Source of the DNA: Candidatus Binatia bacterium
Lineage (GTDB): Bacteria > Desulfobacterota > Binatia > UBA9968 > JAJDTQ01
Direction of reading: 5' to 3'
DNA length: 33,682 nucleotides
Assembly (NCBI GenBank): GCA_022823055.1
Contig: JAJDXX010000057.1
Span: forward strand, 1-33,682
Below the pieces are notes generated by a model. That model did no database searches, had not been told where the DNA came from, and saw only the letters and a program-made list of their open reading frames with translations. Positions 137-12,621 of this stretch are shown piece by piece (the stretch's first letter is position 1; each line of letters opens with the position of its first letter). Made by a program: the position numbers and the translations under genes.

Positions 137-236
137 TACAATTCCCGCGAAAGCGGGAATCCAGGGGTGGAGAGGGGCCAAACGGGCATATTCCCCGCCA
201 CACCCCGCCTGGATTCCCGCTTCCGCGGGAATGACG
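137..236. repeat. Palindromic repeat, copy 1 (about 100 bp)
   Basis: The two ends are near-perfect inverted copies of each other (about 138-165 and 208-236). Each contains an ATTCCC-N8-GGGAAT core (141-160 and 213-232). The roughly 40-base middle is almost identical to the middle of the copy at 10933-11033. To its right lie a TTGACACA-containing box (263-282) and a half copy of the palindrome (288-319), both also found around copy 2. The ATTCCC-N8-GGGAAT core has the same form as the dRS3 repeats known from Neisseria. Whether the families are related is inference. It carries no gene and is probably a non-autonomous mobile or REP-like element. Confidence 0.85.
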
Positions 237-287
237 GTATGGGATGTCGGTGTCATATCCAATCCGAGTCGTGTTTGACACAGCTTG

Positions 288-319
288 GGAAGCGGTAATC
301 CAGGGGCGGAGAGGGGACC
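288..319. repeat. Partial (half) copy of the palindromic repeat
   Basis: This stretch matches the left half of the full repeat (GAAGCGG, then TAATCCAGGGG, then GGAGAGGGG) with a few changes and then stops. It follows the box TCCGAGTCGTGTTTGACACA at 263-282. That box recurs in reverse at 10886-10906 with one extra base. The pairing of box and half repeat at both loci shows that the repeated unit is larger than the palindrome alone. Confidence 0.6.
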
Positions 320-455
320 TTTGTTTGACTTTCCACCAAGCCTCTGTTAGCTCCTAACCATCCTGGCAGCACGTGCTTGAATCCTCCTGCCATCGAACAC
401 CGACTCCCCTCAGGACAATGATGATTGCGGCTTGCGCGCCCGTTTGGTGGTGCAT

Positions 456-1709
456 ATGAACCTCACGCGTATCAAGGGCTTCGCCGACGTTCTGCCCGGA
501 GACGTGGAAGCGTGGCAGCGGATCGAAAGGGCGGCAGAACGGGTATTTGCGAGCTACAACTTCAAGGAGATTCGCATACCCGTGCTGGAGAAGTCGGAGC
601 TCTTTTCCCGTTCCCTGGGCGAGTCCACGGACGTCATCGAGAAGGAGATGTACACCTTCGCCGACCGGGACTCCAAGGCGACGCTGCTGAGCCTGCGGCC
701 GGAGGGCACCGCCGGCGTCGTGCGGGCGTACGGTGAAGGAAAGCTCCACCAAGTGGAGCCCGTGCGCAAGCTCTACTACCTCGGCCCCATGTTCCGCCGG
801 GAGCGGCCTCAGAAGGGCCGGCTGCGGCAGTTCCACCAGATCGGCGCCGAGGTGTTCGGCCGCACCGATCCCTACGTCGACGCCGAGTTGCTGCTGTTGC
901 TGCGGGACCTGTGGGAGGATCTCGAAGTGACCGATACGGTCCTGGAGGTGAATTCCATCGGCTGCGCCGAGTGCCGTCCGGGCTACCGCGCGGCGCTGGT
1001 GGCGTTCCTGGAGGAGCGCCGGGCCGAGCTGTGCGCCGATTGCGACCGCCGGCTGGAGAACAATCCCCTGCGGGTGCTGGACTGCAAGCGGCCGTCCTGC
1101 GGCGGCATCGTGAGCGCGGCGCCGTCGATCCTTTCCCACCTTTGTGACGATTGCCGGAGTCACTTCGACACGGTGCTGGAACTGCTCCGGGACCTCCGGC
1201 CGGAGCCGGTGGTGAACCCGCGCCTGGTGCGCGGCCTGGACTACTATTGCCGGACTACCTTCGAATGGAAGGCCGGCGCGGGCCTGGGGAGCCAGAACAC
1301 CGTGGCCGCGGGCGGCCGCTACGACGGGCTGGTGCAGTCCCTGGGGGGGCCGCCGGTGGCGGGCGTGGGCTTCGCCCTGGGGGTGGAGCGCCTGGCGCTG
1401 CTCCTGTCGGAAGGGGACACGAACGAAAGCGGCGCGCCGCTGCTCTATCTCGCCTGGATGGGCGAGGCGGCCCAGCGCTGGACGTTCGCCCTGGCACACC
1501 GGCTGCGCCGGCGCGGGCGCCGGGTGGACCTGGAGGGCGAGGCCCGGAGCCTCAAGAGCCAGATGCGGCGTGCCGACAAGCAAGGGGCGAGCGTGGTGCT
1601 CATCGTCGGCCCAGACGAAATGGAGAGAGGCAGGGCGCTGGTGCGCCACATGGCGACCAAGGAACAGACCGAGGTGGATTTCGCGGACGTTGAGGAAAGT
1701 CTCGGGTGA
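456..1709 (+). CDS. hisS: Histidine--tRNA ligase
   Basis: Class II aminoacyl-tRNA synthetase that charges tRNA-His in the cytoplasm. The 417-residue product has the normal length. Visible family marks are the motif 2 region ([20 protein letters not shown]), the histidine-specific motifs LVRGLDYY and AAGGRYDGL, motif 3 ([11 protein letters not shown]), and a C-terminal anticodon-binding domain from about residue 330. The frame is open upstream to a TTG at 432, but the ATG at 456 ([14 protein letters not shown]) fits the usual start of the family. No good Shine-Dalgarno sequence is seen. The stop codon lies 4 bases before the GTG proposed for aspS, a common hisS-aspS pairing that implies co-transcription. 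A weak promoter may lie near 325-353 (TTGACT, then a poor -10), but I would not rely on it. Confidence 0.96.
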
Positions 1710-1713
1710 ACAC

Positions 1714-3510
1714 GTGAACAAGCGGAACGTGGACTTGATGGGCGACTGGCAGCGAAGTTGCCGCTGTGGCGAGCCGGGCGAGGGTGACGTGGGCGGGGAA
1801 CTGACCCTGATGGGCTGGACCCAGTCCGTGCGGGACCACGGCGGTCTTCTCTTCATCGACCTGCGGGACCGCTCCGGCATGGTCCAGGTCGTGCTGAACC
1901 CCGAGGTGACGCCCGAGGCCCACGACAAGGCCAAGCGGGTACGCTCCGAGGACGTGCTGGCGGTGCGCGGAACCCTGGTGCACCGGTCCGACGAGACCGT
2001 GAACCCCAACATCCCCACCGGCGCGGTGGAACTGATGGCGCGGGAGTTGCGGGTGCTCAACCCTTCGCGGGTGCCGCCGTTTCCCGTCGACGACGAGGTC
2101 GAGCCCACCGAGACCAGTCGTTTCCGCTACCGCTATCTCGACCTGCGGCGACCGCGCGGCCTGCGCCCCCTGGAGATCCGCCACCGCATGCTGTCCACCA
2201 TCCGCAACCATCTGAACGACCTGTCGTTCATGGAAGTGGAGACCCCCGTGCTCACCAAGAGCACGCCCGAAGGCGCGCGTGACTATCTCGTTCCCAGCCG
2301 CATGCACCCGGGCAAGTTCTACGCGCTGCCCCAGTCGCCCCAGCTCTTCAAGCAGATCCTCATGGTGGGCGGGGTGGACCGCTACTTCCAGATCGTGCGC
2401 TGCTTCCGTGACGAGGACCTGCGCATGGACCGGCAGCCCGAGTTCACTCAGCTCGACATCGAGATGTCCTTCGTGCAGCCCGAGGACATCTTCGCCATGG
2501 TCGAGGGGATGATGCAGCGGGTGTTCCGGGAGGTCCGGGGTGTGGAGCTGGAGACGCCGTTTTGCCGCCTGAGCTGGGAGGAGGCCATGGGACGGTACGG
2601 CACGGACAAGCCGGACCTGCGCTTCGGCCTGGAGCTGGTGGAGCTTTCGGACACGTTCCGTGACTCCAAGGTCGCCATCTTCACGCGGGCGCTGGCCGCC
2701 GGCGGCATCGTCAAGGGCCTGCGGGCGCCCGGCGCCGGTGACCTGTCGCGCAAGGAACTGGACGACCTCACCGAACTGGTGGGCCGTTACGGCGCCAAGG
2801 GGCTCGCCTGGATCAAGGTCACCGACAGCGACTGGCAGTCGCCGCTGACGAAGTTCCTGAGCGAGGCCGAGAAGGATGCGCTCCGGGACCTCACCGGAGT
2901 GCAGTCCGGCGACGTGATCTTCATGCTCGCCGACGACTTCGACATCGTCAACGAGGGTCTCGCCAACCTGCGGCTGGAGATGGGCCGGCGGCTCGGACTC
3001 GTGCAGGAAGGCGTCCAGGCGTTTACCTGGGTCCTCGACTTTCCGCTGGTGGAATGGAGGAAGGCCGAAGGCCGTTTCACCGCCGTGCACCACCCCTTCA
3101 CCGCGCCGCGAGAGGAAGACCTGCCGCTCCTGGAATCCGACCCCGCCCGGGTGAAGTCCCGCGCCTACGACTTGGTGCTCAACGGCATGGAGCTGGGCGG
3201 CGGCAGCATCCGGATACATTCCCCCGAGCTGCAGCGGCAAGTGTTGTCGCTGCTCGACGTCAACCCCGACACGGTGGACGACCAGTTCGGCTTCCTCCTG
3301 GAAGCCCTGGACCTCGGCGCCCCGCCCCACGGCGGCATCGCCTTCGGCGTCGACCGCCTGGCCATGTTGTTGAGCGACTCGCCGGCCATCCGCGACGTCA
3401 TCGCGTTTCCGAAGAGCCAGCGCGCGGTTTGCATGCTGACGGAGGCGCCCACGGCGGTGGATGTGAGGCAGCTTGCGGAGCTGCAGATCAGGACGTTGGC
3501 GGGGGATTAG
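1714..3510 (+). CDS. aspS: Aspartate--tRNA ligase (bacterial type)
   Basis: Charges tRNA-Asp. The 598-residue product is the bacterial type. It has an N-terminal OB anticodon-binding domain, the class II core with motif 2 ([20 protein letters not shown]), a GAD insertion domain at roughly residues 290-420, and motif 3 ([14 protein letters not shown]). The GTG at 1714 gives an N-terminus reaching into GDWQRS, which resembles deltaproteobacterial relatives. The ATG at 1738 is the alternative start. The catalytic N-terminal region reads DHGG with His42, the residue associated with non-discriminating AspRS, which also charges tRNA-Asn. The second residue linked to that property, usually Gly, appears to be Glu here, so specificity is open. 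Gene follows hisS by 4 bases. Confidence 0.95.
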
Positions 3511-3682
3511 CCACAAGGCCGGATCTCCCGCCGTGCCTAACGCTGGCTTGCGGAAGTCTTCCGCGCCCTCAGTACAGAGAAAGGTGATGTCAGGCTGGGC
3601 GGACCATATCGAGCCCATCAAGGACACCCGACGGTCCTAATTCATCCGTCTGTGCCGAAATGTCAAGAGGCCGAAGAGAGCC
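3511..3682. other. Convergent intergenic region between aspS and def
   Basis: This 172-base gap separates two genes that point at each other. Two small hairpins are visible: GCGGA-AGTCT-TCCGC near 3550-3564, and GAGGC-N8-GCCTC at 3667-3684, the latter touching the end of def. Neither has a proper T-run, so both are weak terminator candidates. No coding potential is seen. Confidence 0.35.
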
Positions 3683-4216
3683 TCATCTTTCCGTCCAGTA
3701 GCGCGCCAACTCGGTGAGGTAAGTCAGCGTCGCAAGATCGGGCATTCGGTCCATGTACACGCGGCCGCGCAGATGGTCCACTTCGTGCTGGATGACACGC
3801 GCGTGGAAATCCTCGGCAACGAAGTCCAGCGGTTTGCCGTCGCGGTCCAACGCCGTGACCCTCAGTCGTTTGTAGCGGGGGACGCGGCCCCGAATCTCGG
3901 GGATGCTCAGGCATCCCTCCCAGTCTTCCTCGATTTCGTCGTCCAGCGGGACGATTTCGGGATTGATGAGAACGGAAAGGGGCACGGCCTCCTTGCCGGG
4001 GTAACGAGCGTTGTCGGCTACTTCCAGCACCGCCACCTGTATGGATTCGTGAACCTGCACCGCGGCCAAGCCCACCCCCTGGTACTCGTGCATGGTGACC
4101 ACCATGTCGTCGATGAAGCGCTGGAAATCCGGTTGGTCAACCGCTTCGGCAGGAACTTCGCCGGCAGGTGTGCGCAGCACTGGATTGCCCAAGCGGGCGA
4201 CCTTGAGGATGGCCAT
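3683..4216 (-). CDS. def: Peptide deformylase
   Basis: Removes the formyl group from the initiator methionine of new proteins, using a metal ion. All three family motifs are present in the 177-residue product: motif 1 GVGLAAVQ (47-54), motif 2 EGCLS with metal ligand Cys102, and motif 3 QHEVDH with ligands His144 and His148 and catalytic Glu145. Motif 1 carries Val where Pro or Asn is common. The frame is open 12 codons further upstream, but the ATG at 4216 gives the standard start (MAILKVARLGNPVLR). It is divergent from the suf regulator, with about 260 bases of shared control region. It stands alone rather than beside fmt, its frequent partner. Confidence 0.95.
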   Translation of the reverse strand: MAILKVARLGNPVLRTPAGEVPAEAVDQPDFQRFIDDMVVTMHEYQGVGLAAVQVHESIQVAVLEVADNARYPGKEAVPLSVLINPEIVPLDDEIEEDWEGCLSIPEIRGRVPRYKRLRVTALDRDGKPLDFVAEDFHARVIQHEVDHLRGRVYMDRMPDLATLTYLTELARYWTER

Positions 4217-4314
4217 CCGACGTTGGTAGCACAGCGGTTTCGGGGCCTTCAAGCCGCCGTTGGGTTCGGCCGGAAGTCAGTCCCAGCGGATCGGGCGTGG
4301 AGGCGGAGGCGTGT

Positions 4315-4344
4315 TTGACAACATAGACGCTTTAGGTCTATATT
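4315..4344 (+). promoter_or_regulatory. Sigma-70-type promoter of the rrf2-suf operon
   Basis: TTGACA at 4315-4320 is a perfect -35 box. TATATT at 4339-4344 is a 5/6 -10 box, and the spacer is 18 bases. Transcription should start near 4351, leaving a leader of about 75-130 bases depending on the start codon used. A palindrome occupies the spacer and enters the -10 box (see the next entry). Confidence 0.75.
4323..4341. promoter_or_regulatory. Inverted repeat, likely operator of the Rrf2/IscR-type regulator
   Basis: ATAGAC (4323-4328) and GTCTAT (4336-4341) form a perfect 6-7-6 inverted repeat lying between the -35 and -10 boxes and overlapping the -10. Rrf2 proteins bind palindromes and commonly repress their own operon. 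Position and the adjacent regulator gene make autorepression likely. This is inferred from placement, not from a match to a proven motif. Confidence 0.6.
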
Positions 4345-4477
4345 TTCTTTGATCAGACGGACAATGTGCCACGCAAGGGAGAACCTTTCGGAGTTGTGAA
4401 GCGTTCTCGCCAGGGGATCCAGCATGCACGCATCGACTGTGAATTCCGCCAGAACCACGGCCGACCGAAGCTCGCTG

Positions 4478-4912
4478 ATGAACATCGGCAGGAAGGTCGA
4501 CTACGCGGTACGCGCGCTTTCGTATCTGGCGGCCCAGCCGCACCTTTGGGTGGTGGGCAGCAAGGAGATCGCCGCGCGGCAGGACATTCCGACGCATTAC
4601 ATGTCGAAGATCATGAAGGATCTCGCGGCGGCGGGGTTGGTGCAGTCTCACGTGGGCCGCAAGGGCGGCTTCAGCTTGGCGCGTCCGGCGGAGTCCATCA
4701 GCGTCAAGGAAGTCTACGAGGCCGTCGAGAAGCCGCTGAGCCTGATGGAATGTCTGGATCATCACTGCTGTCCCTATGACACGGTGTGCACGCAGATTTC
4801 CGTGTGGGAACGGGCGCAGATGCTGCTGGTGGAGTACTTGGCAGGGGTCTCCATCGGGAGCCTTGCCGACCGCGAGGGGCTCAAGGGGCGCCTGAACGGG
4901 CTGCACAGTTGA
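4478..4912 (+). CDS. Rrf2-family iron-sulfur transcription regulator (IscR/SufR-like)
   Basis: Winged-helix regulator of 144 residues heading the suf operon. The N-terminus (MNIGRKVDYAVRALSYLA) is the usual Rrf2 start. The helix-turn-helix covers about residues 28-60, followed by the wing motif GRKGGF. Counting from this ATG, cysteines fall at 92, 97, 98 and 104. The 92/98/104 set is the same spacing that holds the [2Fe-2S] cluster in E. coli IscR, so cluster sensing is likely. An earlier in-frame ATG at 4424 has a better purine-rich sequence before it (AGGGG) and would add 18 residues without family support. I prefer 4478. It probably represses the suf genes when clusters are plentiful. Confidence 0.88.
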   Translation: MNIGRKVDYAVRALSYLAAQPHLWVVGSKEIAARQDIPTHYMSKIMKDLAAAGLVQSHVGRKGGFSLARPAESISVKEVYEAVEKPLSLMECLDHHCCPYDTVCTQISVWERAQMLLVEYLAGVSIGSLADREGLKGRLNGLHS

Positions 4913-4923
4913 ATTTTTGTAGG

Positions 4924-4954
4924 CCGAAGGGGACCCCTTCGGGTCCATCTTCGG
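4924..4954 (+). other. Strong two-part stem-loop before sufB
   Basis: CCGAAG (4924-4929) pairs with CTTCGG (4949-4954). GGACCC (4931-4936) pairs with GGGTCC (4941-4946) around a CTTC loop, with only a small internal bulge. No T-run follows, so it is not a typical terminator. It ends 4 bases before the first possible sufB start. It could set mRNA processing or stability between regulator and suf genes, or limit ribosome access to sufB. Confidence 0.6.
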
Positions 4955-4958
4955 ACGG

Positions 4959-6425
<1,467 letters not shown>

Positions 6426-6454
6426 AGCCGTCGCAGACCATTCGGATGTAGAGA

Positions 6455-7263
<809 letters not shown>

Positions 7264-7267
<4 letters not shown>

Positions 7268-8655
7268 CGGAGGCGTCCGCCGAGCAGCAGGGCTACCTCG
7301 AGGACTTCGAGAAGCTCGCGGCGCGGGCCTCGCGCAACGGCGGCGCCTGGGTCGGCGACCTGCGCCGCAGGGCCATGGACCGCTTCCGCTCCCTGGGGTT
7401 TCCCACGACGCGCGACGAGGAGTGGAAGTACACGAGCCTGGAGGGGCTGCGGCGGGCGCGTCTGCGTACCATCGACACGGTGACGGGCGGGGCGCGGAGG
7501 CACGATCCGTTCGATTCGGGCGACTGGGAGCGCTACGAGTTGATGTTCCCGTGGACCGGCGAAGGGAAAACCGGCCCGGGAGTGCGTGAGGGGCGTGGTC
7601 GAGGCAGCGACGCGGGGAACGCGAACGTGGCTGAGAAGGGGTCGAACCGGGTCGCCGCGGGTGCGCGCGATGGGGACGTCTTCATCGGCCGTCTGGCGGA
7701 CGCCGTGGAACTGCGTTTGCCCTGGGTGGAAGCGCACCTCGGGCGTCACGCCGACTATGATGGACACGCGCTCCGTGCGCTCAACACGGCCTTCGTGGAG
7801 GATGGCGCCGCGGTCCGGCTAGGGCGCGGAGTCGACCTCGACCGGCCCGTCCACATGGTCTTCCTCGCCGACGCCGGGCAGGAGTCCAACCGCATCGTGC
7901 ATCCGCGCACCCTGGTGGTGGTGGGCGCGGGCAGCCGGTTGACGCTGGTGGAGGCCTACGCGGGCTCTGGCGGCGCGGTCGGCTGCACCAACGCCGTCAC
8001 TGAGATCGTGCTGGAGGACGACGCCGAGCTGGACCACTACCGCCTGGTGCGCGAGGGCGGCGGGACGTTCCACCTGGGCTCGGTGCAGGTGCACCAGTCG
8101 CGCAACAGCCGCTACCGTTCGCATTCGGTGATCACGGGCGGTGCCATGACGCGCGTGGAACTGAACGCGCTGCTCGACGGCGAGGGCGCCGACTGCCTGC
8201 TCCAGGGACTCTACGTGGCCGGCGGCTCGCAGCACGTGGACAGCCGCACGGCCATCGAGCACGCCAAGCCCCACGGCACCAGCAGCGAGCTGTACAAGGG
8301 CGTGCTCAACGACCGTGCGCGGGCGGTGTTCAACGGCAAGATCGTGGTGCGCAAGGAAGCGCAGAAGACCGACGCGCGGCAGTCCAACCGGAACCTGATG
8401 CTGTCCAGGGACGCGGAGATCGACAGCAAGCCGCAGTTGGAGATCCTGGCTGACGACGTGCGTTGCGCCCACGGCACCACCATCGGCCAACTGGAAGAGG
8501 ACGAGATGTTCTACCTGCGCTCGCGCGGGCTCGACGCCGCGGTGGCCCGGAAGCTGCTGGTGCATGGCTTCGCCAGCGAGATTCTTGACGGCGTCGCCAT
8601 CGAGCCGTTGCGGGACGGTCTCACGAACCGGGTGTTGTCCGAGTTGCGGGCGTGA
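7264..8655 (+). CDS. sufD: Fe-S cluster assembly protein SufD
   Basis: Partner of SufB in the scaffold. The 463-residue product carries the DDVRCAHGTT motif, matching the Cys and His (358 and 360 in E. coli) that act at the SufB-SufD interface. The FYLRSRGLD helix and C-terminal SEILDGV follow. The start is the ATG in the ATGA overlap with sufC; the open frame upstream of it lies inside sufC. Between the N-terminal helical domain and the beta-helix there is a Gly/Arg/Asn-rich linker (about residues 98-135) that looks poorly conserved and is probably disordered. A small GACGGG/CCCGTC hairpin (8656-8675) separates it from sufS. Confidence 0.94.
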
Positions 8656-8717
8656 GACGGGAACGTAGGCCCGTCAACGGCCAGCGCGATCGAACGGGGT
8701 CTTCTTCAGGATAGAGC

Positions 8718-9983
8718 ATGAGACAGGTCAAGACAGCGGAGTGTAACGGGCCGGCCGAGGCCTTCGACGTGGCGCGGGTGCGCGAGGATTTTCCGATTCT
8801 CGGCGAGAGCGTCCACGGCAAGCCCCTGGTGTACCTCGACAACGCGGCCACGGCGCAGAAGCCGCGCTCCGTCATCGAGCGTGTGGCGGGCTACTACGAG
8901 ACCGAGAACTCCAACATCCATCGGGGCGTGCACCGCCTGAGCGAGCTGGCCACCCGGGCCTACGAGGACGCTCGCGGCGCGGTGCGGCGGTTCCTCAACG
9001 CGGCGCAGGACCGGGAGATCGTGTTCGTGCGCGGCGCCACCGAGGCCATCAACCTCGTGGCCCGGTGCTACGGCGGTGTCAACCTCGAGGCCGGGGACGA
9101 GGTGGTGATCTCCGCCATGGAGCATCACTCCAACATCGTGCCGTGGCAGCTCATCTGCCAGGAGAAGGGCGCGGTGCTCCGGGTCATTCCGGTGGACGAC
9201 CGCGGCGACGTCGTCATGGAGGCCTATCACCGGCTGCTGGGACCGCGCACCCGCATCGTGGCGTTGCCGCACGTGTCCAACGCCCTGGGCACGGTGAACC
9301 CCATCAAGGAGATGATCGCGGACGCGCACCGGGCAGGCATCCCGGTGCTCATCGACGGCGCCCAGGGGGCGCCCCACGCCGCCGTGGACGTGCAGGACCT
9401 GGACTGCGACTTCTACGCCTTCTCCAGCCACAAGCTCTACGGCCCTACCGGCGTCGGCGTGCTCTACGGAAAGGCCGGACTGCTGGAGGCCATGCCGCCC
9501 TACCAAGGGGGCGGTGACATGATCCTGACGGTGAGCTTCGAGGCCACCGAGTACAACGCGCTGCCGTACAAGTTCGAGGCCGGCACGCCCAACATCGCCG
9601 GGGTCATCGGCCTGGGCGCGGCCGTCGAGTACCTTACCGGCCTGGGCATCGAGGCGGTGGCGGCCCACGAGGACCGGGTGCTCGCCTATGCGGTGGAACG
9701 GCTCACGTGCGTTCCCGGCCTGCGGCTCATCGGCACCCCCGCTCGCCGGGCGTCGCTGGTGTCGTTTATCTTCGGCGACGTGCACGCCCATGACATCGGC
9801 ACCATCCTGGACCAGGAGGGCATCGCCGTGCGCACCGGACACCACTGCGCCATGCCCGTGATGGACCGGTTCGGCGTACCGGCCACCGTGCGCGCCTCGT
9901 TCGCATGCTACAACACCGAGGCCGAGGTGGACGTGCTGGCGGAGGGACTCGAAAGGGTAAGGAGGCTGTTCGACGGTGTCTGA
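8718..9983 (+). CDS. sufS: Cysteine desulfurase SufS
   Basis: PLP enzyme that takes sulfur from cysteine and passes it as persulfide to SufU for cluster assembly. The 421-residue product is a group II (SufS-type) desulfurase. The PLP-binding lysine is Lys239 in FSSHKLYGPTG, and the catalytic cysteine is Cys377 in RTGHHCAMP. The N-terminal AFDVARVREDFPIL and YLDNAAT motifs are typical. The ATG at 8718 follows an AGGATAG ribosome site by a few bases. The 62-base gap from sufD is the widest gap among the assembly genes. The stop codon overlaps the sufU start. Confidence 0.96.
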   Translation: MRQVKTAECNGPAEAFDVARVREDFPILGESVHGKPLVYLDNAATAQKPRSVIERVAGYYETENSNIHRGVHRLSELATRAYEDARGAVRRFLNAAQDREIVFVRGATEAINLVARCYGGVNLEAGDEVVISAMEHHSNIVPWQLICQEKGAVLRVIPVDDRGDVVMEAYHRLLGPRTRIVALPHVSNALGTVNPIKEMIADAHRAGIPVLIDGAQGAPHAAVDVQDLDCDFYAFSSHKLYGPTGVGVLYGKAGLLEAMPPYQGGGDMILTVSFEATEYNALPYKFEAGTPNIAGVIGLGAAVEYLTGLGIEAVAAHEDRVLAYAVERLTCVPGLRLIGTPARRASLVSFIFGDVHAHDIGTILDQEGIAVRTGHHCAMPVMDRFGVPATVRASFACYNTEAEVDVLAEGLERVRRLFDGV

Positions 9984-10425
9984 CCTGAGGGACCTCTACC
10001 AGGAGCTGATCCTGGACCATAACCGCAAGCCGCGGAACTTCGGGCCGCTGGCCGGCGCCAACCGCAGCGCCCGCGGCGTCAACCCGCTGTGCGGCGACAA
10101 GGTCGCGGTCCACCTGCACGTGGAGGACGACCGCGTGACGGGCGTGAGCTTCGAGGGCACGGGCTGCGCCATCTCCATCGCCTCCGCCTCGGTCATGACC
10201 GAGAGCCTGAAGGAGCAAAGCTGTGACCACGCCAGAGAGCTGTTCGAGCGGTTTCACCAGATGGTGGCCAACGACGACGGCGGCAACGACGGCGCCGGCA
10301 TGGGCAAGCTGGCGGCCTTCGCGGGCGTGCGCGACTATCCGGCGCGCGTGAAGTGCGCTACGTTGGCATGGCACACGTTGCGCGCGGCCCTGGACGGCGA
10401 GGACAAGGCCGTGAGCACCGAGTAG
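9976..10425 (+). CDS. sufU: SufU-type sulfur acceptor / scaffold protein
   Basis: Receives sulfur from SufS and passes it to SufBCD. The 149-residue IscU-fold product has Cys39 and Asp41 in NPLCGD, Cys64 in GTGCAIS and Cys127 in RVKCATLAW. This is the zinc-ligand set of SufU. The roughly 20-residue insertion between the second and third cysteines, which separates SufU from IscU, also appears present. The GTG start overlaps sufS by 8 bases. No sufE is found in the operon, as expected when SufU does the job. Confidence 0.94.
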   Translation: MSDLRDLYQELILDHNRKPRNFGPLAGANRSARGVNPLCGDKVAVHLHVEDDRVTGVSFEGTGCAISIASASVMTESLKEQSCDHARELFERFHQMVANDDGGNDGAGMGKLAAFAGVRDYPARVKCATLAWHTLRAALDGEDKAVSTE

Positions 10426-10455
10426 GGCGGCGGGAGCCGGACCGGGAGATATTCC

Positions 10456-10779
10456 GTGGAAAGCGTTGCGGAGCAGAAGGACATCGAACGGCGCGCCATC
10501 GAGGCGATACAGACTTGCTACGACCCCGAGGTGCCGGTGAACATCCACGAAATGGGCCTGATCTACGGCGTGGAGGTGGACCCCCTCGGTGAGGTGACCG
10601 TTACCATGACCCTCACCGCACCCAACTGCCCGGCGGCCCAGTCCCTTCCCGCGGAGGTGGAGGAGAAGGTCCGGTCGGTGGACGGCGTCACGGACGTGCA
10701 CGTGGACATCGTCTGGGAGCCGCCTTGGGACCCTAGCCGCATGTCGGACGCGGCCAAGCTGCAGCTCGGGATGCTGTAA
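10456..10779 (+). CDS. sufT: SufT-like DUF59/MIP18-family protein
   Basis: A 107-residue member of the MIP18 (DUF59) family. It has the N-terminal DPEVPVNIHEMGLIYGV motif, Cys58 in TAPNCPAAQ, and the C-terminal WDPSRMSDAAK tail. SufT proteins help mature or deliver Fe-S clusters to target proteins. The position at the end of a sufBCDSU run favours that role over the related PaaD of phenylacetate degradation. It starts at a GTG after an intergenic stretch that includes a GGGAGA purine run. No T-rich terminator is visible after it. Confidence 0.9.
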   Translation: MESVAEQKDIERRAIEAIQTCYDPEVPVNIHEMGLIYGVEVDPLGEVTVTMTLTAPNCPAAQSLPAEVEEKVRSVDGVTDVHVDIVWEPPWDPSRMSDAAKLQLGML

Positions 10780-10854
10780 CCTTTGTGCCCTGCGTTCCAG
10801 GAGGAGTGCCAGCAGGCCCCGTCAAGCTCTTGCGTCAAACTCGTGCGACGGGAA

Positions 10855-11100
10855 CCTTACGAAACGTCATTCCCGCGGAACAGTTTGTGTCAAGACACGA
10901 CTCGGACACAAAAGTGGCACCCCGCCCCGAACCGTCATTCCTGCGGAAGCGGGAATCCAGGGGTGGAGAGGGGCCAAACGGGCGTATTCCCCGCCACACC
11001 CCCGCCTGGATTCCCGCTTCCGCGGGAATGACGTGTTCGTAACGTCTCTGCGTGGCGAGTTTTGACACAGCCTGGGAAGCGGGAATGACGTTTCGTAAGG
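10855..11100. repeat. Composite inverted repeat enclosing palindromic repeat copy 2
   Basis: The outer arms 10855-10893 and 11062-11100 are inverted copies: 22 bases at the outer edge and 8 at the inner edge (TGTGTCAA) are identical, with 9 differing bases between. The outer 22 bases contain a half copy of the core palindrome. Inside lie the box at 10886-10906 (reverse of 263-282) and the full copy at 10933-11033. The whole is a nested, nearly symmetrical structure about 246 bp long with no gene. It fills the space between sufT and lysS. Confidence 0.8.
10933..11033. repeat. Palindromic repeat, copy 2 (101 bp)
   Basis: The terminal inverted repeats are 29 bases (10933-10961 and 11005-11033) with a single mismatch. 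The cores are ATTCCT-N8-GGGAAT (10937-10956) and ATTCCC-N8-GGGAAT (11010-11029). The middle is nearly identical to copy 1 at 137-236, in the same orientation. It would form a long hairpin if transcribed. Confidence 0.9.
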
Positions 11101-11133
11101 TCTTGCCGGCTCCGAGAAAAATTTCCATAGATC

Positions 11134-12621
11134 ATGGACGAAATCAACGAGGAGATGAAGGCGCGCCGCCACAAGCTGACGCAATTCAGGGCGCGACAGT
11201 TGGCGAAACACCGTTCCGCGTATCCCAACGACTTTCGTCCTGTCCATAAAGCCCGGGACCTTCGTGACCGCTACGGAAATTTGGCCCAACCGGAACTGGA
11301 AGAATTGTCGGAGGAGTTCTCGTTGGGTGGCCGCATACGGGCGCTCCGGCCACACGGCAAGGCAGCGTTCTTCGAAGTCGAGGACAGCACGGGGAGACTG
11401 CAAATCTACGCGCGCATGGACAGGCTGGGGACGGACGCTTACGAAGAGGTCCGCTTGCTGGACGTGGGTGATATCGTTGGTGTACGTGGCCGGCTGTTCC
11501 GGACCCGCACGAACGAGCTTACCATCGAAGCCCGGGAAGTCCGGATGTTGAGCAAATGCCTTCGGCCGCTGCCCGAGAAGTGGCACGGCCTGAAGGATGT
11601 GGAAACACGCTACCGGCAACGCTACGTGGATCTGATGGTCAACCCCGACGTTCGCGAAGTGTTCCGGAACCGCTCGCGGATCATTGGGCTGGTACGCGAG
11701 TTTCTGCAGGAAAAGGGATTCCTTGAGGTCGAGACCCCGATGATGCAGCCTGTGGCGGGCGGCGCGGCAGCCAAGCCGTTTGTGACCCACCACAACTCGC
11801 TGGACCTAGACCTCTACCTGAGAGTAGCGCCGGAGCTGTTTCTCAAACGACTGCTCGTAGGCGGCTTCGACCGCGTGTTCGAGTTGAATCGCAACTTCCG
11901 CAACGAGGGACTTTCGACGCGCCACAATCCCGAGTTCACCATGGTCGAGTTCTATCAGGCCTACGCCGACCACGAGTACATGATGGAGCTTACCGAAGAG
12001 CTGTTCAGGAGACTCGCGGAGAAGATCTGCGGAAGTCTACGCATTCCCTGCGGCGAACACGAAATTGACCTGGAACCGCGTTGGAAACGGCTCTCCGTGA
12101 CCGAAGGCGTGGCCCAGTACGCGGGAGTGGAAGAGTCAGAACTGAAAACGTTGCAGGATTTGTGGAAGGTCAGGGATAAACTGAACCTCAAGCTCGATCC
12201 CAAACTGGACCGCAGCGGGCTTCTGGTGGAACTCTTTGAGCACTTGGTGGAGCCGCACTTGATCCAACCTACCTTCGTGACGGGGTACCCTCTGGAAGTA
12301 TCGCCTCTGGCGCGCCGGAACGACATGGCCCCCGCGTTTGTCGATCGCTTCGAGCTGTTCATCGGCGGGCGGGAGTTGGCCAACGCCTTCTCCGAGCTCA
12401 ACGACCCGGACGACCAGCGGCGCCGCTTCGAGGAGCAGGCGGCGGCCCGGCGGGCCGGCGACGATACCGCCTGCGAGGTGGACGAGGACTACGTGCGCGC
12501 CCTGGAGTACGCCATGCCGCCGGCGGCGGGGGAGGGCATCGGCATCGACCGCCTGGTGATGCTTCTGACCGATTCCCCCTCGATCCGCGACGTCATCCTC
12601 TTCCCGTTGCTGCGTTCCTGA
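11134..12621 (+). CDS. lysS: Lysine--tRNA ligase, class II
   Basis: Charges tRNA-Lys. The 495-residue product has an N-terminal OB anticodon-binding domain (about 60-165), motif 2 (FRNEGLSTRHNPEFTMVE), and motif 3 (GEGIGIDRLVMLLTDSPSIR). The start MDEINEEMKARRHKL fits the family. No Shine-Dalgarno sequence precedes it, and a second ATG at 11155 follows GAGGAG too closely to be good. Base and codon use change within the gene. Up to about 12330, GAA and GAG, TTG and CTG are mixed and GC is lower. Beyond that point glutamate codons are all GAG and GC matches the neighbours. This suggests recombination within lysS. lolC starts 2 bases after its stop. Confidence 0.96.
   Translation: MDEINEEMKARRHKLTQFRARQLAKHRSAYPNDFRPVHKARDLRDRYGNLAQPELEELSEEFSLGGRIRALRPHGKAAFFEVEDSTGRLQIYARMDRLGTDAYEEVRLLDVGDIVGVRGRLFRTRTNELTIEAREVRMLSKCLRPLPEKWHGLKDVETRYRQRYVDLMVNPDVREVFRNRSRIIGLVREFLQEKGFLEVETPMMQPVAGGAAAKPFVTHHNSLDLDLYLRVAPELFLKRLLVGGFDRVFELNRNFRNEGLSTRHNPEFTMVEFYQAYADHEYMMELTEELFRRLAEKICGSLRIPCGEHEIDLEPRWKRLSVTEGVAQYAGVEESELKTLQDLWKVRDKLNLKLDPKLDRSGLLVELFEHLVEPHLIQPTFVTGYPLEVSPLARRNDMAPAFVDRFELFIGGRELANAFSELNDPDDQRRRFEEQAAARRAGDDTACEVDEDYVRALEYAMPPAAGEGIGIDRLVMLLTDSPSIRDVILFPLLRS

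Follow-up and report, generated by a model that had tools for sequence, protein, structure and literature searches.

A putative REP-carrying MITE inserted in the loops of REP palindromes in a Candidatus Binatia genome

Introduction

Bacterial MITEs are 70-300 bp long, have inverted terminal repeats and no coding capacity, and are moved by transposases acting in trans. NEMIS, RUP and ERIC are named among them (PMC3733652). CGTC-1 REPs are described in the same source as having an 8-bp stem, a 4-nt loop, a CGTC head and a CCA tail, and as occurring mostly in head-to-head dimers. CGTC REPs are known from five phyla; Neisseria is named among the CGTC-1 hosts, and the dimers of H. neapolitanus sit within 41-bp palindromes. 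No dedicated transposase is reported there for CGTC REPs (PMC3733652).

ISRm22, ISPpu9, ISPa11, IS1397 and IS621 are ISs targeting REPs; ISRm22 is described as inserting at the axis of the REP palindrome, with 6-bp direct repeats (PMC1525189). IS1272 and TnSha1 (IS1182 family) target hairpins or inverted repeats. According to their descriptions, they have no primary sequence specificity, replace or partly delete the hairpin and generate no duplication (PMC5678879, PMC4923244).

The Binatia element reported here would share its type of target with IS1272 and TnSha1. As these two are described, it would differ from them by its size (about 200 bp), its putative lack of genes, its single target family (REP) and the duplication of the loop. 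It resembles ISRm22 by insertion at the REP palindrome axis with a duplication (PMC1525189). The described REP-targeting ISs belong to the IS4, IS110 and IS3 families, and REP cargo is not among the features given for them (PMC1525189). Compared with the CGTC-1 REPs as published, the REP dimer would here be the interior of a MITE and the REP loop its target; compared with NEMIS, RUP and ERIC, the cargo would be the same in kind as the target, hence the nested arrays. The parts are of already known kinds (MITE, CGTC-1 REP, hairpin-targeting IS1182); the self-nesting combination looks new. Among open-licence papers, neither an IS1182 MITE with REP cargo nor an element carrying its own target was found, and a literature search by the exact end sequence returned nothing related.

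The window is the whole stretch of DNA analysed (33,682 nucleotides). It corresponds to an entire contig (C2) of a Binatia MAG of 4.27 Mb in 253 contigs. Two of its sites are best explained, with a probability of about 0.8, as copies of a non-autonomous MITE that carries a REP dimer, is inserted in a REP loop and was probably moved by an IS1182-type transposase.

Anatomy of the two copies in the window

Coordinates are those of the window. Strand is given only where assigned. Target halves and terminal repeats are named according to the preferred reading.

Copy A
141-160: REP core 1, ATTCCCGC-GAAA-GCGGGAAT; CGTC head tag absent.
213-236: REP core 2 (213-232) and GACG head tag, present on the right side only (233-236).
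237-271: subterminal spacer, from the REP dimer to the right end.
272-287, minus strand: right terminal inverted repeat (box), TGTTTGACACAGCTTG; inward reading, CAAGCTGTGTCAAACA.
288-303: half REP GGAAGCGGTAATCCAG (loop GGAA, GCGGTAAT and CCAG tail); right half of the copy A target.

Copy B
10854-10864: ACCTTACGAAA, extending the inverted repeat beyond the half REP and pairing with 11091-11101; relic end score weak (10/16).
10865-10880: left half of the target REP, CGTC-ATTCCCGC-GGAA.
10881-10896, plus strand: left terminal inverted repeat, CAGTTTGTGTCAAGAC.
10897-10932: left subterminal spacer.
10933-10956: REP 1 of the internal dimer, CGTC tag and core (core 10937-10956, one mismatch).
11010-11033: REP 2 of the internal dimer, core (11010-11029) and GACG tag.
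11034-11058: right subterminal spacer.
11059-11074, minus strand: right terminal inverted repeat; inward reading, CAGGCTGTGTCAAAAC, the exact consensus.
11075-11090: right half of the target REP, GGAA-GCGGGAAT-GACG.
11091-11101: TTTCGTAAGGT, inverted copy of 10854-10864.

The sequence-only reading had seen in copy A a palindrome, a box and a half palindrome. All these pieces exist, the box being located at 272-287 and not at 263-282, and the half palindrome at 288-303. It had also placed box and half palindrome, inverted, on both sides of a second site near 10855-11100. This was confirmed at 10865-11090, where half palindrome, box, spacer, two cores, spacer, box and half palindrome follow each other. 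Its view that the repeat unit is larger than the palindrome holds as well: the unit is a box-bounded element whose interior is a REP dimer.

Cores 1 and 2 of copy A form a head-outward REP dimer folding into one hairpin. Copy A is one-ended: the left box is absent and only the right one survives. In copy B, the loop GGAA is found on both flanks, i.e. as a 4-bp target-site duplication. The 11-bp inverted repeat outside its half palindromes is possibly the spacer of an older, outer layer. Copy B folds into one long hairpin (-92.7 kcal/mol, z -13.1 vs shuffles); the corresponding values for copy A are -44.3 kcal/mol and z -4.1. Spacers of the window copies are 25, 35 and 36 bp long. No Rfam match was found in the window at gathering scores. 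Copy A lies upstream of a putative hisS-like gene. Copy B lies between a suf-type iron-sulphur cluster and a lysS-like gene. The stretches concerned are 432-10779 and 11134-12621, and the names were read from translations.

The REP palindrome

A genome-wide count gave 559 exact ATTCCCGC-N4-GCGGGAAT cores in the 4.27-Mb genome (reversed-pattern control, 0) and 88 exact junctions of half palindrome and box (control, 0). Uninterrupted REPs were counted in the unselected stretches plus the window (681,457 bp). Of these 77 exact cores, 75 carry a CGTC-type head and, opposite it, a CCAG-type tail; the remaining two have a tail and an unclassified tag. The palindrome fits the published CGTC-1 REP (8-bp stem, 4-nt loop, CGTC head, CCA tail). 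The ATTCCC-N8-GGGAAT core noticed earlier is present, and it fits this description too; dRS3 and CGTC-1 may be the same thing.

Complete REP dimers found in the unselected stretches number 22, with no box (12), one box (7) or two boxes (3). REP dimers therefore also exist without the MITE.

Two side observations concern the REPs. A stretch of about 24 bp around CTCGACCCCGATCGGGG splits one stem of some of them, ATTCCCGCGAAAGC^...^GGGAAT (loci L211, L226, L228, L300, L304 and L309; 10 matches in 648 kb of unselected stretches). In the relative G113, locus L072 carries another long intergenic palindrome, with arms like CGTTCGTCCTGAGCGTAGCGGAG...GAAGTCGAAGGGCG, at the site of the L191 REP dimer of the window's genome; a similar long palindrome in L072 stands at a place where L191 has almost nothing.

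Element ends and insertion target

Thirty loci were compared. The box is CAGGCTGTGTCAAAACTC or a variant of it, is found at one or both ends of the insert and mostly directly abuts ATTCCCGC-N4. It is best read as the terminal inverted repeat, CAGGCTGTGTCAAAAC, of a MITE-like element, and the 'half palindrome' as half of the REP whose loop received the insert. A half REP with the full 4-nt loop adjoins 232 of 265 distinct ends (175 from loci of the genome itself and 90 from those of relatives, with at most 2 mismatches allowed in ATTCCCGC; these loci were mostly picked for holding the repeat); 33 ends lie off any half REP. In the unselected stretches (647,775 bp), 33 of 43 boxes are on a half REP, and 20 scrambled boxes gave 34 matches in total, of which 1 on a half palindrome. 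By extrapolation, the density of 43 boxes per 648 kb corresponds to about 284 per genome.

In the window's genome, a REP core follows inside the end in 125 of 181 cases, mostly from 43-59 bp onwards; another 31 ends open into a further half REP and end, i.e. another layer, and 25 have no palindrome inside. Two-ended copies provided 52 end pairs, with inverted arms, 124-317 bp apart (190-206 bp for 31 pairs). Since an end meets a REP core or a further half REP, the unit would consist of end, spacer, REP dimer, spacer and end. The element is putatively non-autonomous, about 200 bp long and without transposase gene. The earlier description of a nested, self-targeting element is borne out in outline: the element holds a REP dimer, sits itself in a REP loop, and has further layers, as the 31 ends just mentioned show.

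According to the sequence-only reading, occurrence of box and half palindrome independently of the full palindrome would make the composite unit a chance one. Independent occurrence is found in part (12/22 dimers boxless, 25/181 ends without palindrome). It does not make the composite chance, because a mobile element and its target should show it. An ordinary REP mosaic (BIME), in which chance neighbours need no mobile element of their own, could account for the dimers without box, about half of them. The junction counts are far from their controls (88 vs 0; 33/43 vs 1/34) and refute this explanation; near-identical copies at different sites and the long-range symmetry of ends and spacers also argue against it, so that hardly any credence is left to it.

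A second small repeat of about 70 bp, CATTGATATGAAAATAA...GGAATCCCGCTACACCCCAATGAGTC, adjoins REPs and also occurs inside MITE spacers (L216, L213, L309 and L010 of the same genome and L066 of a relative; 8 matches in 648 kb of unselected stretches).

Loop duplication and flank types

Ends were sorted by the tag of the adjoining half REP: 185 head, 54 tail and 12 without classified tag (251 in total). The loop is of type R-AA at 148 of the 185 ends on a head (CGTC) half and of type TT-Y, its complementary strand, at 45 of the 54 ends on a tail half; uninterrupted REPs follow the same rule of loop and strand. As R-AA and TT-Y are the two strands of one loop, both halves hold the whole loop. Duplication of the loop is also indicated by the 232/265 ends that keep a half REP plus the full 4-nt loop. 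As read from the DNA, the putative element is thus seen in the 4-nt loop of another REP, with the full loop on both halves.

Across the 52 pairs, the two loops are equal (15), one base apart (13), exactly mirrored (10), mirrored within one base (4) or other (10). Random re-pairing gives 9.3 equal pairs (P 0.024) and 10.4 exactly mirrored ones. Given these end-shuffling expectations, the evidence from the pairs taken alone is modest, and that from the tag-specific loops is stronger. Loops are equal within one mismatch in 13 of 14 head/tail pairs.

Head halves on both sides are found in 30 of the 52 pairs vs 0 of the 77 uninterrupted REPs, so simple insertion alone is insufficient to explain the flanks. 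In a hairpin-replacing insertion, the transposase would cut the two strands of the long REP-dimer hairpin opposite each other and the upper part would be replaced, without duplication. The head/head pairs would then be expected, 11 of the 30 being mirrored exactly or within one mismatch (CGTC-ATTCCCGC-GGAA, insert, TTCC-GCGGGAAT-GACG). IS1272 and TnSha1 are described as deleting part of the target hairpin, and a mirrored flank is also present in Omnitrophota (L134). However, mirrored flanks were rejected as proof of hairpin replacement, re-pairing yielding as many, and 12 head/head pairs have a duplicated loop within one mismatch. The partner REP is retained more often by young copies on tail halves than by older ones (see below), suggesting that its loss is later. 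Hairpin replacement is therefore considered unlikely, though it is the most serious of the rival explanations.

Nesting, age and decay

An outer end (score of at least 12/16) is found on the same side at 58 of 183 head-side ends; the chance is 0.3% per side at random places in the 45-100 bp range. Outer ends were also counted in the 45 pairs with classified tags (the 7/52 with an unclassified tag being left out): at least one is present in 16 of 30 head/head pairs and in 5 of 14 head/tail pairs, and 4 pairs have one on each side.

Near-identical copies are found at different sites, and copies lie within the remains of older ones, forming Russian-doll arrays. In 20 of 185 end contexts, at different sites, 99-100 of 100 bases match one young reference; some of these ends were fetched because they are located at contig ends. 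They correspond to at least 10 copies, given that two ends may stem from a single copy cut by a contig break. These near-identical copies point to a recent burst.

The partner REP is intact at 6 of 9 young tail-half ends vs 6 of 45 older ones (Fisher P 0.002). Its loss thus seems to be later decay. One-ended copies, such as copy A, fit such decay. The head:tail ratio of young ends (17:9) does not differ significantly from that of older ones (168:45; P 0.14).

The whole composite, half REPs included, could alternatively be a REPIN/BIME-like unit, with a CGTC head at either end, moved by a RAYT-like transposase, the box being a passive part of its interior. This would be consistent with outside tags that are mostly heads (185/251 ends vs 54 tails), with the reported prevalence of head-to-head dimers among CGTC REPs, and with loci that hold the entire composite at a counterpart without REP (L309 of the genome itself vs L090; L057 and L273 of a relative vs L304 of the genome itself). 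Yet copies of the same outer form differ in interior sequence and loop type, 14 head/tail pairs exist, with loop duplication on tail-side flanks, and of the 26 young ends, 9 adjoin a tail half. The same ends enclose other interiors in Omnitrophota and Elusimicrobia, and CGTC REPs are reported without dedicated transposase. Such a unit is improbable, and insertion of a MITE in the REP loop is preferred.

In orthologous stretches (mostly from G113, about 85-95% identical in the longer matches), no clean case of an intact REP facing an insert was found: whole arrays are present or absent. In one comparison (L095/L184), both sides have a dimer, and only one of the two dimers has ends. The contigs of the MAG break at such repeats, and several contigs of the genus end inside them.

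Distribution across genomes

The exact junction was found in 6 of 148 genomes of the class, all in the genus of the window (6/9 of its genomes). Among the matches listed, most named relatives sharing this junction are Candidatus Binatia MAGs. REP cores and junctions covary over the nine genomes of the genus (Spearman 0.93), related genomes being not independent and the junction pattern itself requiring a half REP.

Outside Binatia, the matches listed include Omnitrophota, Elusimicrobia, one Vicinamibacteria bin and one Allomuricauda contig. The Allomuricauda match has no second end or REP nearby and seems due to chance. In Omnitrophota and Elusimicrobia, the same ends are found in REP-like loops, with interiors other than the Binatia REP dimer. 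Inspected by eye, a 130-bp insert of Elusimicrobia (L079) has GAAA doubled on both sides, and the five two-ended Omnitrophota copies comprise three that double three bases, one mirrored and one mixed. The contig binned as Vicinamibacteria carries the same MITE (L096, 3490-3763), with a dimer middle resembling that of L005 of the window's genome; this may reflect either misbinning or transfer.

Candidate transposases

Box-type ends were located, by inverted-repeat scan, in all six annotated plasmid IS1182 elements fetched (out of 188 matching records), and the likeness of the ends to IS1182 is drawn from these six. Their left or common forms are CAGACTGTGTGAAAAC, CAGACCGTGCGAAAAC, CAGAGTGTGTAAAAAC, CAGACCGTGTAAAAAC, (C/T)AGACTGTGTGAAAAC and GAGGCTGTGTAAAAAC. 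In one Omnitrophota genome, six contig ends fall within an element that is bounded by such ends and located in REP-like half palindromes; 102 bp in, a protein start, MPIITGDRQQM, resembles IS1182 starts (over these 11 residues only). In a genome of the genus (G114), CAGACCGTGTGAAAACTC is followed 61 bp inward by the start of a decayed IS1182 gene (family match), outside any REP. From these three observations, we infer that the agent is a DDE transposase of the IS1182 family with CAGRCTGTGTNAAAAC-type ends.

Not every IS1182 has box-type ends: in the nine genomes of the genus, all seven IS1182 genes that passed the cut-off have CTAG-type ends. The IS1182 genes of the window's genome (contigs C41 and C252) are rejected as parents for the same reason. 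Three long end pairs of the sampled contigs were checked as parents; all enclose ordinary-looking genes. The contig-end element of L215, whose end AAGGGAATTATATA and protein start resemble L243, is probably an IS1595 in a MITE end, and that of L218 and L234 is another multi-copy IS inserted in the MITE. The latter has ends GAGCCACTTGCAAAAC and occupies the same MITE position in both contig ends.

Searches of the genus for the IS1182 and IS1595 families revealed no intact autonomous partner with these ends, and a MITE-type end, with up to two mismatches allowed, is absent from the 30 IS1595 loci fetched from the genus. G119, a genome in a single contig, carries 4 insert ends and yields nothing for IS1182 at E 1e-20. 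In Omnitrophota, searches at class and phylum level recovered no full-length copy bounded by these ends on both sides. Neither the junction nor the protein-start pattern was matched in viral contigs, and the IS end searched had no match in plasmids.

The sequence-only reading had raised the idea of a Neisseria-style dRS3 target of a phage integrase or Piv. The core has indeed the ATTCCC-N8-GGGAAT form given for dRS3, and IS110-family elements are described as inserting in REPs. This attribution to a filamentous-phage integrase or a Piv/IS110 recombinase does not stand up well, and is very improbable: the ends match those of IS1182 DDE transposons, viral contigs hold no exact junction match, and no Piv or IS110 gene is so bounded in the loci read. 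Terminal inverted repeats and a doubled loop would also be atypical of Piv/IS110, most IS110 members being described as having no inverted repeats.

Proposed mechanism and significance

An IS1182-type transposase acting on the MITE thus remains the preferred explanation. The element would comprise an end CAGGCTGTGTCAAAAC, a spacer, a head-outward pair of CGTC-1-type REPs, an inverted spacer and an inverted end. A DDE transposase of the IS1182 family would recognise its CAGRCTGTGTNAAAAC-type ends and cut the REP hairpin across the loop, duplicating 4 bp; in three of the five two-ended Omnitrophota copies, the duplication, as read by eye, is of 3 bp instead. Each insertion would bring two new REPs and, with them, further targets. 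The half-hairpins left over from the target dimer would then tend to vanish, which would leave one-ended copies (window 141-303) and head/head flanks (window 10865-11090).

It is conceivable, although rather doubtful, that the MITE is a vehicle spreading CGTC REPs, its cargo being also its target and each insertion seeding two sites. The covariation of REP cores and ends points in this direction, as do the same ends in REP-like loops of Omnitrophota and Elusimicrobia. Opposing it are the 12/22 dimers without end and the interiors found outside Binatia, which are not the same REP dimer. If true, the MITE would be the mobiliser so far missing for the CGTC REP superfamily, and would explain REP dimers inside larger palindromes.

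A transposon that carries and targets CGTC REPs would provide a testable route for REP spread, and its nested arrays a natural record of insertions. It would exemplify the targeting of hairpin loops, with duplication of the loop, by an element whose ends resemble those of IS1182, some members of which are described as deleting hairpins. These repeats also help to explain assembly breaks in the genus.
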